From: Xiphophorus maculatus
Taxonomy: Eukaryota; Chordata; Actinopteri; Cyprinodontiformes; Poeciliidae
Direction of reading: 5' to 3'
Length of the DNA: 64,000 bases
NCBI RefSeq assembly: GCF_002775205.1
Contig: NC_036454.1
Span: 27,264,283-27,328,282, forward strand
Each line of letters begins with the position of its first letter. Within the stretch, counting starts at the first letter, position 1. Below are positions 8,821 to 30,500 of the stretch, piece after piece. The notes under the pieces were generated by a model that searched no databases, was not told the origin of the DNA, and worked only from the letters and a program-made list of their open reading frames with translations. The position numbers and the translations under genes were made by a program.

Positions 8821-11185
<2,365 letters not shown>

Positions 11186-21534: not shown

Positions 21535-24500
21535 TTACTCCCCGTCTGAAAACCTCTCCGGCAGAGAGTAGGGCCCGGCCCGGCCCCAGTAGTCCACAGC
21601 TCGAACTCGGTACAGACCCCCAACCTTCTGGTCCACTGCAACACAAACATGATGGATAGATTATAATTACCAGCTCTGAGGCTGCAGTGAAGATCAGAAT
21701 TTACATCCCCAAAAAGAACAGAAAAAAAGGAGAGGGGAAAACATGTCTACCTGGTGAGTAGACGTAAGAAGTAAAAATGGTGTCCTGAGCATTAACCCGA
21801 CTGAATTCCTTCTGGTCCGTAGAAAATTCTACTTCAAACGTCTTGATGCATCTACAAAACATGGAGTCAGAAGTGAAGGCTATCACCTAACCTTTGAAAG
21901 GACACTACAGTGACTCGTTTAATCCATTTTCCTTGAATAAAATAGTCAAACTCAAAGAAATATTAGCCATTGCTCTTACTTTGAACCAACACAGTGATCT
22001 GACCAGATAACGAGGACTTGGCCTTTGGTGATCCTGATGAAGCGTAAACCATTGACCTGACAACGACAAAACACAGCTTGTGGTAGAAAACAGTGCTAAC
22101 TAAAACTTATTTGGCTGCAACGCCATAAAATATTCATATTAATAACACATTTTGTCATGGTACAAACACAGACTCCGTGCTGATGGTCTCCATTTCTAAT
22201 CAACTCACTTCTGAAGGCAAGTGGTTGAACTAGATTTTGTTTAGAGCTGTTACAATAACGGGGTATGAATACAAATTTATGTCAAACTATTCAGATTTGT
22301 TTTCGGAAAAAAAAGTTAGAAACCTTCTCGATCAAGGTCTTAATTAAGGACTACTTTGTTTTGATTTATCACACAAAATCCTGACTGATTAGATTGTTTT
22401 CAGTAAATGTAACACAATGTAAAGAAAAAAAAAAGTTCAAAGGATATGACTCCAAGGCCCTGAAAGCACATAAGAATGAACAAGTGTGTGTAATTACTGC
22501 AGCCTGTTCGTAACAAAGACTGAAACTTTTTCCAACCTGGTCTGGTCCGACCTCAGGCCGGGCACAAACATGGACTAGGAGGACGGAGGGAAGAGACAGT
22601 TTGGCTTTTAGAGTCAGAGTGTCGCCAGGAGGAAGTTTCTGAGGTCCGTCAGTCCGGGGGTCCTAACAGTGACACATCATCAGTGGGTCAGAAGCTGCAG
22701 ATTAAAAATTATGGCCATAATCGGCAGAATTTTTTTCCATCCAGAATTAAAACCTTGTTTAGATGGTTTTATTTAGAAATAATTACCTCCACACTCCTGA
22801 GCTGTCTGAACTGTTGTGTGGTGGGGAAGTCAGGGCTGCCCATGCTCTGCCACAGCTGGTGTGGGTTGGTAACGTTATTGTCCATGTAGTAGGTGACGTA
22901 CACCAGACCTGGACAACAAACAGATACTGAGCTGGACTAAAACATTCTATCTAAGCTGCAGGATTTTGTCAAAAGCTTACCCTTCTGCTCAGCTAGTCCT
23001 TTCAGCTCGACTGCAACATCATCGATGCGTTGGGAAGTGCTGTTGTCGTCGCTGTTGTAGACCAGGACCGCCGCCTGCCAGCTGTCGGACCCGCCATGGA
23101 TCACAGGTCTGTGGGTGCTGGCGAGAACGCCCACGGTGCTGTTTTCTTGACGTCCAGAGTTTAAAACCTGAGCCAGGACTTGTGTTTCTCCTTATAGAGG
23201 AATGACGTGCAGGAGTTCAATATTAGCCGCATGCATGACATTAAAAACAAACAACAACAAAAAATCACTGTTGATGAATCACACAGTTTTTCTGAGGCAA
23301 AATTTTTAAAGATTCGATGATTTTGGTGTTTCAGCAGGTGTCACCAACTCAAATTTAATACTGTATGAGACCATTTTAAAACTGTTATGAATAAAATTTA
23401 AGCTCTGTCACAATCACCACAAAAAAAGTGCTTTTTATTTTTTTTAAGAGTACCAAATTTATGATATGTCTGGGGGCTTTTTGTAACGCTTGGGAGCAGT
23501 TTTGAGCTCCTCACACTGTACAGTCTTAACCCATATAGTGTCAAGCTTTTTTGAACAAAATGCACGTGGTATGGGTCGGCGACAGAAGCGAGTCAGTGGA
23601 GAACTGCCAGTAAATTTACAACTACCCATGATGACACAAAAACAGCTAGGTAGCAAGTACTAGCAGTTCGCTACCAACCGCCTCAAGACACTGGATGCAG
23701 TGTGAGAAGATGTCTGTGTGCGACTCAAACGTTTGCCTATAGAAAAGTCCTGTAATAAAAAACCTATATAGAGTATAAAAGATTAAATAGTCCCATCACA
23801 ACAAAATTTAAGACCTGTGATTACTGTATTTAAGGCCAACTTACATTTTCTTTAATGAATTTAAAACATTTTAAGGTCTTAATTTTAGATACACAAATCT
23901 AAGTCTTAAATGATGTACAGACACCCTGACTTTTGAGAACGTCACCTAGCAGAGCCAGCAGGCCCATGACGGTGAGGACGGGCTTCCGGATGAGCTGGAC
24001 ATGAGGCGGCCGGGTGTTGTTGACCTGGAAACAAGCGGTCAGCGTGCGCTGAGTGAACGGGTGCGGGTGGTAACTCAGAAAGGCGTTGTCGTTGCTCAGA
24101 AGGGTGTAGTTGATGGTGTTATTGGGGTTAGCCAGAAGCAGATCCTGGTGCTGCTTTATTATCTGATTGGAGAAGAAGAAGAAGAAGAAGAAGATTTTTA
24201 ACAATACATTTATTGTACAATAATTCAACAATAAAAACATTACATAAATCAGGTCAAAGATACTAAAACAAATAAATATTTACATTAACACTTTGTTATA
24301 TTTTAGTTCTCCCTGATCAGAAATGATGCACAATATATTATTAAAAGCCCACAGTTCTAAAAACCCCGTCAAATTTTCGGTGACTCTGTAGAAACAAAAC
24401 TCTAACCTCAACCTAGCCCTGATGTTCACCTTCCACAGACTCACCGCGTCGAGTTGAGGTCCAGCCTGCATTTTGTCCCGTCGAGTTATATAAATAGCCA

Positions 24501-27500
24501 TCTTGGCCTCGGCTAATTAATAATTTAAAATCCGGGATTTAAAACTAGTGGATCGACTATAATGTACACCATTTATAAAAACAGAATTGGTAAAAACCAC
24601 GCCAAAGAGGCTAAAAATGCTCGCTAAAAAATGTAAAAAACTAGTTAAACGTACGCAATCTATAAAAACATGAAAAACACTCTCGGACAAACTGCAAAAA
24701 GGACACTCGTTTAAAACCCCAGGACTGATGACCGATAAAAACGAGTTCGTGGCGATGGCACCGTGCAGGATCCGCCACTGCAGATCACCAGTCCTTTTCT
24801 TTATCGGAGGTTTGTATAAAGTCCTCCACTGAGGCTTTTGCCCTCCCAGTTTGTCAGTCCATACACTGACGGATCTTTTACAAAGAGTTCTCTTGTTCAG
24901 GATCTTTACGCAGTATTTATATAGTATTTTTGGCCCCGTTTTGCAGAGCTCCATCCCTAATCCTGGGCTTTGCAGCAGGGGGCCACTTTCCTCCCCAAAA
25001 TTGGGATCCAGGGACACGTCAGGGAACGGGTCATTCGGATCAGGCAGGCACTCTTTTGTGGCGTGTAGTTGTAGCAGCCGCCTCTCCCCAGCCGTCATTC
25101 GCTCCTTCACCCTCTCCAGGAAGCGCTGTGTCAGCCTGGCGGACCGGATCTTCAACAGTGTGCTGACCTCCTGGACGTTGGCAAAGTCCGGTCCAGCCAC
25201 CACTATCAGCCGCCGCAGGGTCACCGTCCCGGACCCAGACAGCGCCTCAGAACAGCCCGGCACGGTGCTGTCGCAGACGTCTAATCTCGCTCCACAGATC
25301 AACGGTTCTTCTAAAAGCCAATGCAGAGAATTATGCGATTTTGTCCTGTGCAGTTTAAAAAAAGCACAGGATCTTAAAACACTTTGATAAAATTGAGGCA
25401 ACCCCTTTAACTTTAAAAAACTAAAATCAGTTAAAAACAGAGCAGCATCCAGCCCCAGAAAATTAACACGTCTGAGAATGCAGCTGGCCACGTCCTTCCA
25501 TACAGGGGAACCTGTCAAATACTTCTGGAGGAACTGTAATCTAAAAGTAGCCGTTCTACTGGCCAGGTGGACGAGGCCCTGACCCCCCTCCTCTCTTGAT
25601 AAAAACAAGACAGACTGTGGCACCCAGTGTAGACCGTTCCAAAAGAAATTGACCATCTCTGTTTGGATTTTTGCAAGTAGCCCAGATGGCGGGTCTAACA
25701 CCGCAAGTTTGTGCCACAGCTGTGAAGCGACTAGATTATTTAAAACCAACACTCTACCTCGGTAGGACATTTGTGAATGTAACCATTTCCATTTTGATAA
25801 CTTGTTTTTCATTTTTTCTTCAATATTTTCCCAGTTCTTTTTTACAACATGTTTATCGCCTAAAAACACACCGAGATATTTAAAACCATCCTTTTTCCAT
25901 AAAAGACCCTGAGGGAGAACTGGGAGCCCGTTGGACCACTCGCCGACTGCCAGGGCTTCGCTTTTTCCCCAGTTCACCCTCGCAGCGGACAGAATTGAAA
26001 ACTTTTTCGTGATCTCGGTTAAAACAGTGACATCCCGCTGATCTTTAATAAAAACAACGACATCGTCAGCATAGGCAGATAAAACCATATTGTTTTTAAA
26101 ACCGGGTAAAACCAGACCGTGAACAGTCGAGCGTATTTTCTGGAGGAGGGGTTCCAGGGAGAGTGCGTAGAGCATCCCCGAGAGCGCGCAGCCCTGTCGA
26201 ACGCCTCTACACACCCTAAAAGGAGCACACATGCTGCCGTTGATCTTCAGCACACTCTCAATATCACTATACAAAACCTGGATCTTGGCGATAAGACCCT
26301 CGCCGAACCCAAACCTCCTCATGGTTTCCCAGAGGAAGCCGTGTTCGACGCGGTCGAATGCCTTTTCTTGATCTAGTGAAATCAAGCCCGTTTGGAAACC
26401 CAATGAACCGGAGACCTCCAAAACGTCCCGAATTAGGTAGATGTTATCTACCATGGACCTGCTGGGGACACAATAGGTCTGATCCCGGTGGATGACCTGC
26501 TCCATAGCTCTTCCCAGCCTAGTGGCCAGGGCCTTGGAGAGAATTTTGTAGTCGGTGCAGAGGAGGGACACGGGGCGCCAGTTCTTGATGTCCTGCAGGT
26601 TTCCCTTTTTGGGCAGCAGGGTGATCACTGCCCTGCGGCAGGACAGGGGGAGTGAACCAGTAAGCAGGCTCTCATTGTATACGTCTAGCAAGTCTTGGGC
26701 CAGAAGATCCCAGTAGGCCTTGTAGAACTCCACAGTGAGCCCGTCAACGCCTGGGGACTTCTGGCCCTGCATGCTGAGGAGGGCTGTGTGGAGCTCCTGG
26801 AGCCCCAGAGGGCGCTCCAGCTCGGTGTTTGTCTCCTCGGAGACCTGAGGCAGTTCGTCACAGAACTCCTCGAACAGTTCCTCGTTCTCTTTATATTCGC
26901 TGTGGAACAAAGAACGGTAAAACTCCACAGCCCTCCTCCTGATCTGCCCTGGTTCACTCAGTTGCTGCCCCGTGTCCGACAGCAAAGAGTGGATCTGCTT
27001 CCTCTGCCCGTGCTTCCTCTCCAAGCTAAAGAAGAAGCTAGAGGGAGCATCCATCTCCGTGATGTTCTGGATCCGGGACCTGACCAATGCGCCTTGGACT
27101 TTATTCTCCAGCAGGTTTGCTAAAACTAGCCTTTTAGATTTGAGAGCTTCAATGTGCTCTCGATTTCCTGTGGATTCACTAAGTCGTTCTAACTCCACGA
27201 TGTTCATCTCCAGATCTCTAATAGATCCGGTGATGTCACGGGTGACATTGAGAGTATGCTGCTGACACAGCAGTTTTATTTGCACTTTACCATGGTCCCA
27301 CCACTGTCTCAGGCTGGTAAAATCAGACTTTCTCTGTCTAAAACCAGTCCAAAAATAACCTAAAATCTCCCTAAAACCCCGATCATAAGTTAAAACAGAG
27401 TTAAAATGCCAGTAAGCGCTTCTAGGTAAAATGTTTCTGATAAAAACGCTACCTAAAAGCAACGAGTGATCGGTAAAAGCCACCGGTAAAATCTGGCATG

Positions 27501-30500
27501 TTTTAAACACGTTAAAATGGTGTTTAAAACAATAAAAACGATCAAGTCGAGCTAAAGAGATTCGGTTTTCCTTAATGTGGGACCATGTGTACTGCCTGGA
27601 GCCTGCATGCATCCTCCTCCATACGTCCACCAGGCCGTGAGACGAGACCAGCTGCCGCAGAGCATGTTGGGCCGCTGGATGCGGCTCTGCATGATTACGA
27701 TCTAAAAACTCGTTTTCCGTACAATTAAAATCCCCACCTATAAAAACATAATCTTCCGACCCACAATCACCCAGCCTTTCCCCAATTTTTTCAAAAAAAC
27801 GCTTTTTTTCTGCATTGGTGATGGGAGCATAAATATTGATAAAAACCAGGCTAAAATGATCAAATTTTGTTTTGACTAAAAGACACCTCCCTTGAACGAC
27901 GTGCTCAACTTCTGTGGAGTTTGGGGTGAAAGCTCTGGAGAACAGAAAACCCACCCCTGCACTCTGGGAGGTGCCGTGACTTAAAATGACCTCCCCCCTC
28001 CACTCTCTGCCCCAGTCTGTTTCTATTAAGGAATCACTGTGAGTTTCTTGTAAAAAAATGATGTCAATTTTCTTCTGGTTTAATGTTTGGTATATCAATG
28101 CACGTTTCTGAGCTACCCTCGCCCCGTTAAGATTTAAAGATGCAATTTTAAAAGAATCCATATTGGGTAAGAAGCTAAAACCAAAACATAAAAACCTTAT
28201 AAAAAATAATAAAAAACTACTGTACATCATTTTTACTCAAAATTGTTTCCTAGCTTTTGACATTATTTTCTTTAATCTAAAAACTTCTGTATCTGTAAAA
28301 CCTGATACCTCTTTGTTTCTGATATGATATCTTGCAGAAAAATAAAATAGTCTTAAATTTGGAAAGTAACTTTCTATTTTTACTCCCCTCAATCCCTTGG
28401 TTTGTTGCAAAAAGGTTCTGTAAGATTCTACCGGGTACCTAGGTTCTTTACTGCTACTTTGGTTTACGGACACCTCACTGGTGTCAGAGAACCAGTCTTC
28501 ATTGTCACTGCTATCTGACACCTCCCTCCTGTCTGCAACCAGCTTGCTGGCCTGTTTACTTGCTTGCACAGCAGCCACCACATTTTTCCTTTTGCTGCGC
28601 CTTTTTTTGGGGGCAGAAGCCTCTAGCTCCATCCCCTCCTCTGTTTCACCTGTCTCTCCCTCCGCTCCTGCTCCAACAACCGACTCTACACTGTTCCTCC
28701 TTTCATTCTGTCCACCCACCTCCTCCTCTACTCTCTCTCCCTGACCTCCACACACTAAATGCTCCTCATCGCCCTTCACCTCCTCCTGCTCTCTCTGCAC
28801 ACCGTCTTTCTCCCCCTCAACACTTCCACCCTCACCACCATTCACCTCATCACCACACACCACCGTGCTCTCATCCATACCCACACACACACTCATTCCC
28901 AACGCTCCCTCACTCACGACTGTACCTCTCTCCAGTTCTCTTGCAGCGGGCTCTTCCACCACCACCGCGGGTTCCCCCGCAGCCGCCACGGCCTCCTCCG
29001 CAGCAACCGAGGGTCCTCCCGCAGCAGCCGCGGGTCCCTCCACGGCGGAAGCGGGTTTCCCCGCAGCAGCCGCGGATTCCTCCGCAGCGGCAGCGGGTTC
29101 TCCCGCAGCGGCAGCGGGCTCCTCCGCTGCCCTACCTTCACTAGGCGGGTTTCCTGTTATCTCACCAGCCGCCTGCTGCTTCGCCGGACCCTGCGGGGCC
29201 GGTTCGGCCTTGTCTGGGCACATTTTTATGATGTGGCCTTCTTTGCCACAACCAAAACATTTCATATTTGAGGACGTGGCAAACAAAACATAGTCAAATT
29301 AATCAATCCTCACGTGAAATCGTAAATTTAACTCGTCATCTTTTCGATTTAGAATCATAAAGAGTTGCCTCCTATGGGATACAACATGTTTTAGTAAAGG
29401 TGATTTGCACCCTGTTGGAACCTTTTTTAGCGGCGACACCACCTTACCGTGCCTCGACAACTCTTTAATCAAGAACTCGTCACTTATAAACGGAGGAACG
29501 TTTGACAGCGTTACCTTCGTTGCAGGTAAGGTAAGTGGCGAGACTTGTAAGAACAAATCGCCTACAGAAACGCCCACCTCCACTAGCTGTTGAGCCTGCT
29601 CAACTTTTTCCACAAAACACACCACCGCTCCATTCATCCGTGCTGCCGACCTTATGCTCCCGTGCCCAATCACATCACCCACAGCCAGACAAACTTCCTC
29701 CACGCTGCACGGAGAACCAGCACCCACCTTGATGCCGTTCTTCCGCGTCAGCGTGGAGAAAGACCCACCACCAGCCACCATGGCGTCCTGAGACGCCGGC
29801 CTGACGGCCACACCCAAACCCACAAAATCCCCTTAAAACGTGACAAAACTAACACAAAATCACAATTAAACAAGTAACACAAACACCCAGTGAATAAACA
29901 GTAAGAAAAAACCAAAGATAGAAAAATACACAATCGCTCGCTCTTTCACTCTTCTTCCGCTCTCCACTCACCCTCCTCTCACACGAAGAAGAAGAAGAAG
30001 AAGAGATGACAGATGGAATCCGAGTAAGTGATGAATTATTACTTATTTTGTCTGCACTTACATTGTTTTTTTGGGGTTATTTTTGCCTTACTTTTACCAC
30101 CATTGCAGCGTAGGTCACGTCAGCCCTCCAGTCCTGAGGTTTGGACCATCCCACCAGAGGGTCGGCCTCATCGTTGTAGACAGGGACGCTGCGGAAGCTG
30201 GGGAAGCGTTTCTGGATTTCCCCTACTGTCTGGAGCTCCTTCTGGAGAATGGGCAAAGAGAAACCCCCTCCCTAGGAGACGGAAACAGAGAGTCAGCTTT
30301 TTCTATACCACAGCTTTATCTCAATTCATAAAAATACTATTAACAAATATAATTATTCCACTGATTAAATTCAAAAAGTACTATTTTGCCATAATTACAT
30401 TGATTTATTACACACAAACTGATCAATTTCAAATGTTTAATTCTTTTCATCTAAATTCTTATGCCTTTTTCCAAATTCAGCTCCTTAGAAAATAAAAATG

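Follow-up and report, generated by a model that had tools for sequence, protein, structure and literature searches.

A LINE between two TTC tracts at an idua 3′ splice site of Xiphophorus maculatus and the (TTC)n specificity of its family

The stretch of Xiphophorus maculatus DNA analysed here, hereafter the window, comprises 64,000 nucleotides of contig NC_036454.1 (G000:C12:27264283-27328282 in our labelling) and carries on its minus strand the gene idua, one intron of which is occupied by a long interspersed nuclear element (LINE) lying between two TTC tracts. The gene and the element were read in the window, and further copies of the element were searched for in 704 Mb of genome. The LINE family was found to be (TTC)n-specific across the genome. 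The idua copy is best explained by a TTC-targeting L1-type LINE that hit a short intron in its pyrimidine tract, the acceptor being preserved by the TTC copy on the exon side, and we give this reading a probability of roughly 85%.

The idua intron and its LINE

The features of the locus are listed in the sense of the gene; a slash marks an exon boundary and E denotes the expectation value.

30092..30241, minus strand: upstream idua exon, at least part, ending ...MVVK at AAA/GTAAGG; PF01229 positions 246-297, Pfam E 8.1e-12
24163..30091, minus strand: idua intron containing the LINE (GTAAGG...CCAATCAG), 5,929 bp; PF01229 matches in order in the adjoining exons
29985..30004, minus strand: 5′ TTC tract, TC(TTC)6, immediately before the element, read from the sequence
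24193..29984, minus strand: LINE, GTGTGAGAGG to TTAAAAATC, 5,792 bp, same sense as idua, repeated across the genome
29299..29832, minus strand: open reading frame 1 (ORF1), first part, ended by an in-frame TAA in the idua copy
28237..29298, minus strand: ORF1, second part in the same frame, containing a CCHC zinc knuckle; PF00098 slightly below the cut-off (E 4.9e-4)
24517..28236, minus strand: ORF2, open frame of 1,239 aa, apurinic/apyrimidinic endonuclease (APE)-type endonuclease and reverse transcriptase, L1-like; PF03372, PF00078, PDB 8uw3_A
24209..24214, minus strand: AATAAA at the 3′ end of the element, about 50 nt upstream of the exon
24171..24194, minus strand: 3′ tract, TC(TTC)7T, the present acceptor pyrimidine tract, whose leading TC doubles as the last 2 bases of the element
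24163..24170, minus strand: CCAATCAG, acceptor end of the intron, read from the sequence
23941..24162, minus strand: downstream idua exon, starting ATAATAAAGCAGCAC (IIKQHQ...); PF01229 positions 293-352, match from 24165

The interval 24163..30091, which the original prediction had described as an idua intron with a LINE between two TTC tracts, proved to be exactly one such intron. Its donor is AAA/GTAAGG with the first intron base at 30091, its acceptor is CCAATCAG/ATAATAAAG with the last intron base at 24163, and both coordinates agree with those predicted. The coding exons had been described as intact, and the exons on either side indeed gave consecutive, stop-free matches to the Pfam GH39 family (PF01229). 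The genome search with PF01229 returned six matches, all within idua and in order; two of the remaining four cross stop codons, as expected for matches spanning introns. In the sense of the gene the intron is composed of 87 nt of host intron, TC(TTC)6, the LINE, (TTC)7 and TCCAATCAG, followed by the exon. The downstream TTC tract, running into TCCAATCAG and the exon, is now the pyrimidine tract of the acceptor, as had been stated, and the intron minus the element and one tract measures 107 + 9 = 116 nt, close to the 'about 120' bp estimated before.

ORF2 matched the Pfam families PF03372 (E 6.4e-10) and PF00078 (E 7e-35), and among solved structures it matched the LINE-1 ORF2 protein (8uw3_A, E 2.1e-77) far better than R2 (E 3.6e-20). 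By these matches the idua element is classed as an L1-type LINE with an APE endonuclease, its ORF2 being nearest to that of L1 among solved structures. The ORF1 frame is uninterrupted over 517 residues in three of five sister copies inspected, and a single TAA splits it in the idua copy. ORF1 also contains a tandem repeat of 21/42/84-bp units (window 28946-29127), which encodes an Ala/Glu/Pro-rich stretch. Identity of the nearest copies to the idua copy is 97.9-98.4% in the first 1.8 kb and 99.3-99.5% in the last 1.5-1.9 kb; therefore the idua insertion looks young.

TTC targeting across the genome and a TTTC sister family

The first 16 nt of the element, GTGTGAGAGGAGGGTG, occur 47 times exactly in the genome, while the reversed control gave no occurrence. 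TTCTTC immediately precedes 42 of these 5′ ends without mismatch. The other five are preceded by TGCTTC, TTCTTT (twice), TTCTGT and, at C19:13387996, by no match within two mismatches. A BLAST query of 285 nt of the element plus 116 nt of flank recovered 40 places (41 rows), in 39 of which TTC is followed at once by GTGTGAG or a near variant as the start of the copy, so that the 5′ end is fixed at the TTC target; the exception is the copy in cngb1 discussed below.

At the 3′ junction TTCTTC was found in 35 of the 40 BLAST-found copies and in 35 of 43 independent flanks, often behind a short A run. The counts of 47 and 40 include duplicated loci, whereas the 43 flanks are cleared of duplicates. 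Counting duplicated loci as separate events was rejected, so that six L066-like flanks (96.6-99.6% identical) entered the set as one, as did four L058-like flanks; the C36 copy L118 was retained despite a match of 97.6% between its 206 nt and L052. From 20 extra regions nine were counted and 11 excluded, either because family membership was not clear (L107, L109, L120, L126) or because they are members of the TTTC family described below or similar to it (L111, L119, L121-L125). Inner junctions of tandem copies were likewise excluded from the 43. By eye, about 18 of the 43 flanks (among them L010, L045, L052, L054, L066, L083 and L113) run on into a recurring repeat type (ATGGCGGTTGGCAAACAACTT...TTACCGCCACC) with TTC at its edge, and the same repeat was seen at about 5 of the 80 control tracts introduced below, the control pattern being biased against its junction phase.

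Head-to-tail arrays of equally oriented copies, spaced by about 5.8 kb, were read with TTC linkers on C3, C4, C11, C15 and C30 and were seen by coordinates only on C13 and C36. Sharing of TTC between neighbouring copies is as expected, because a tract remaining from an earlier insertion would serve as the target of the next. Since TTC stands at most 5′ and 3′ ends and joins the arrays, the family is (TTC)n-specific. TTC occurring at idua by chance, or as a private feature of that copy, is ruled out, since the family as a whole has it. The original prediction had named TTC flanks in other copies as a check; most copies carry them, but eight of the 43 3′ flanks do not.

According to one alternative, the exon-side TTC tract of idua arrived with the element or grew later, at an acceptor whose earlier pyrimidine tract was of the usual kind and poor in TTC. 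Where tract length beside copies was readable by script, it varied between 2 and 58 units, so tracts can grow, and very short TTC stands beside some copies. Against this, copies lie in TTC next to a variety of repeats and genes, and there are tracts on the 5′ side as well. Furthermore, a duplicated stretch of 25 nt, in which the TTC is interrupted by other sequence, lies on both sides of a copy on C18; therefore that TTC tract pre-dated the insertion. Arrival with the element or later growth of the tract is thus considered improbable for idua.

A second family was recognised by a pattern search, which gave 21 places, eight of them with the exact or one-off end AAATAAATGTGGTGTTAAAAATC. TTTC repeats stand at the 3′ junction in six of these eight (L208, L209, L210, L212, L213, L214), and the other two end in (TC)n (L211) and in little repeat (L207). 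In the five longest matches the C-terminal part of the sister ORF2 shows 43-45% identity to the window ORF2, with mostly lower values in shorter ones, and ORF1 of one sister copy is 52% identical over 131 residues to that of the window family. At the 5′ side one sister copy is preceded by TTTCTTTCTTTC, and among the 16 places found with the first 21 nt of the sister element (up to two mismatches) TTTCTTTC stands in front in 11 (up to two mismatches overall) and not in five. L219 is a sister-family 5′ end with TTTC. Head-to-tail sister copies occur on C5. Hence one genome holds two related families whose repeats, (TTC)n and (TTTC)n, differ by one T. The window also contains a perfect (CA)n microsatellite of 54.5 units at 8822-8930.

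Copies directly before exons

In four of the 43 independent 3′ flanks the element is followed, in its own sense, by a TTC tract, an AG and an open exon; exon calls in this set and in the control set were made by eye by one reader, not blind. The four copies lie in idua, in cngb1 (C2:479.5k), in a gene with a DUF4455 domain (C12:2.083M) and before an exon at C18:31.359M. In cngb1 the coding piece before the LINE corresponds to CNGB1 residues 349-389 (E 4.5e-16) and the exon after it begins at residue 391 (7rh9_B, E 5.6e-74 with three joined exons), and therefore the LINE lies within that cngb1 intron. The DUF4455 match (E 5.9e-21) spans two joined exons downstream of the LINE, and the piece on the 5′ side gave only a sub-threshold match of coiled-coil type, so that this intron is seen from one side. 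The exon at C18:31.359M ends CAG/GTAAGG and had no match in Pfam or PDB.

A fifth flank, L081 (C10:21278523, C10:21.279M), has no TTC and ends in TTTTCTAG about 50 nt after the element. The open piece that follows resembles a pim-type kinase by eye, had no Pfam match and meets a stop, and a piece further downstream matches Pkinase under the cut-off (E 2.1e-5). This kinase-like piece may be a pseudogene.

As a control, TTC tracts free of the LINE were examined. There are 308 occurrences of (TTC)6 with a base other than T behind it; from the first 100 listed eight LINE junctions were removed, and 80 of the remaining 92 were taken (C1-C7). Three of the 80 tracts adjoin an open exon, which starts 10 nt (L133, UBE4B-type), 32 nt (L190) or 15 nt (L193) past the tract, each time after an AG. 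The UBE4B-type exon matched Ufd2P_core (E 2.1e-10) with no match in PDB, while L190 and L193 were without homology support (L193: Pfam E 0.058, PDB E 0.7). Homology-backed exons are thus those of idua, cngb1 and the DUF4455 gene in the LINE set and that of UBE4B in the control.

Since LINE-free tracts also adjoin exons (3 of 80), TTC targeting alone suffices for splice-site landings. A further preference of the family for 3′ splice sites, caused for instance by open chromatin, by R-loops at exon starts or by selection for tolerated sites, could raise their number beyond this. The counts lean in that direction, with 4/43 (5 with the kinase-like piece) versus 3/80, or 3/43 (4) versus 1/80 for homology-backed exons, and a one-sided binomial test in which the control rate of 3.75% is taken as exact gave p = 0.077 for four and p = 0.022 for five landings. 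Fisher's test, which allows for the small control, gave however p = 0.24 (4/43 versus 3/80), 0.13 (5/43 versus 3/80), 0.12 (3/43 versus 1/80) and 0.050 (4/43 versus 1/80), none of them convincing. Moreover, the control is a biased sample, limited to long pure tracts ending in TTC plus a non-T base, while tracts beside exons are often short and interrupted. Enrichment at splice sites was therefore rejected as unproved (Fisher p = 0.24), and we regard such a preference as unlikely. Splice-site landings are expected from TTC specificity, and an extra preference is neither shown nor excluded. The general claim of the original prediction, that a LINE of this kind can target TTC-rich 3′ splice sites, stands with respect to TTC specificity and to the recurrence of landings (four with TTC, plus one TTC-free), but not with respect to a preference beyond TTC.

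Insertion, splicing and comparison with known systems

The element would insert into (TTC)n by sequence-specific target-primed reverse transcription. The endonuclease is expected to nick the GAA strand, where the element RNA, ending ...AAAAAUC(A)n, would prime. As the target is itself repetitive and becomes partly duplicated, every new copy would be left with TTC on either side, and landings at splice sites would follow because some pyrimidine tracts are TTC repeats. In idua the element would have entered a short intron, about 116 nt long, at its pyrimidine tract, and the acceptor retains a pyrimidine tract and AG because the downstream TTC copy still precedes TCCAATCAG.

The former branch-point region (CACTTACTC) would thereby have been displaced and now lie about 5.8 kb upstream, and a replacement branch point may be supplied by the LINE, whose 3′ end is T-rich and free of AG. 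Upstream of the idua acceptor AG, no further AG occurs until one that ends 100 nt before the exon. Motifs of the form yTnAy have their A at 70, 83, 87, 92, 111 and 123 nt, measured to the exon, all within the LINE 3′ end; those closest (70-92 nt) are more distant than the 31 nt that had been put forward.

Several observations weigh against the proposed reading. The AG-free 3′ end varies among copies, with 70-73 nt in idua, L092 and L099 versus 32-33 nt in L084 and L103, and since the run is not constant, it may be due to chance. AATAAA about 50 nt upstream of the exon could compete with splicing, and the number of TTC units in idua before the insertion is not readable from one genome alone. 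The cngb1 copy is 5′-truncated by about 40 nt and without TTC on its 5′ side, which makes its target evidence one-sided. TTCTTC is absent from L057, L058 (a duplicated locus), L059, L081, L093, L113, L115 and L117, the eight of 43 3′ flanks mentioned above.

Another possibility is that idua carrying the LINE is mis-spliced or prematurely polyadenylated, the insertion being a damaging and perhaps polymorphic allele of the sequenced fish. This would fit a young copy (relatives 97.9-99.5% identical) with a displaced branch-point region and AATAAA about 50 nt from the exon, and a short interspersed nuclear element (SINE) at an intron/exon boundary of dog PMEL is described to change splicing (PMC7349775). 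On the other hand, the donor, the pyrimidine tract, the AG and the frames of both adjoining exons are intact, and the same arrangement is found in at least cngb1. A damaging allele is therefore considered rather unlikely, if less so than the two alternatives discussed above, and an insertion that kept the acceptor usable and idua normally spliced is favoured.

The targeting of multicopy repeats has been considered a means of sparing single-copy genes (PMC4640811). Here the target repeat belongs, in single-copy genes, to a splicing signal as well, and this signal would be rebuilt by the insertion. The exon-side copies in idua and cngb1 may thus serve as natural tests of tolerated branch-point displacement, and the (TTC)n and (TTTC)n sister families of one genome as a natural pair for what sets the repeat unit of an APE-type endonuclease. 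As a tentative generalisation, LINEs of pyrimidine microsatellites might recurrently lengthen introns at 3′ splice sites, the pyrimidine tract being the repeat that is targeted, its duplication rebuilding the acceptor and the T-rich 3′ end, through motifs such as TTGACCTGAT, supplying a replacement branch point. If so, insertion into an essential signal would be tolerated, and the (TTTC)n sister family would hit another set of acceptors.

Koshi and Kibi are reportedly microsatellite-specific LINEs of the Tx1 group, Koshi being found in (TTC)n. Both are fish LINEs with an APE-type endonuclease that reside in pyrimidine microsatellites. The window family resembles Koshi as an APE-type fish LINE in (TTC)n, a likeness of behaviour, and we know of no report of recurrent landing of Koshi before exons. 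Human L1 prefers TTTT/AA-type sites, in contrast to the (TTC)n of the window family, although its ORF2 protein (PDB 8uw3) is the best solved-structure relative, with endonuclease and reverse transcriptase matched over residues 30-886. The Togen families of fish are, like the window family, non-long terminal repeat (non-LTR) retrotransposons specific for a microsatellite, but for (TG)n; their relatives are the NeSL group, whose endonuclease is restriction-like rather than APE-type (PMC4640811). The Merle SINE in dog PMEL shares the position of a retroelement at an intron/exon boundary beside an acceptor; it differs in its reverse orientation, in its 15-bp duplication and in altering splicing, and the available part of that source mentions no microsatellite target (PMC7349775). 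In a literature search covering few subscription journals, no paper was found that places a microsatellite-specific LINE in polypyrimidine tracts. With the TTTC target not searched by name, the recurrent landing at splice sites and the sister family in TTTC repeats have the best claim to novelty.

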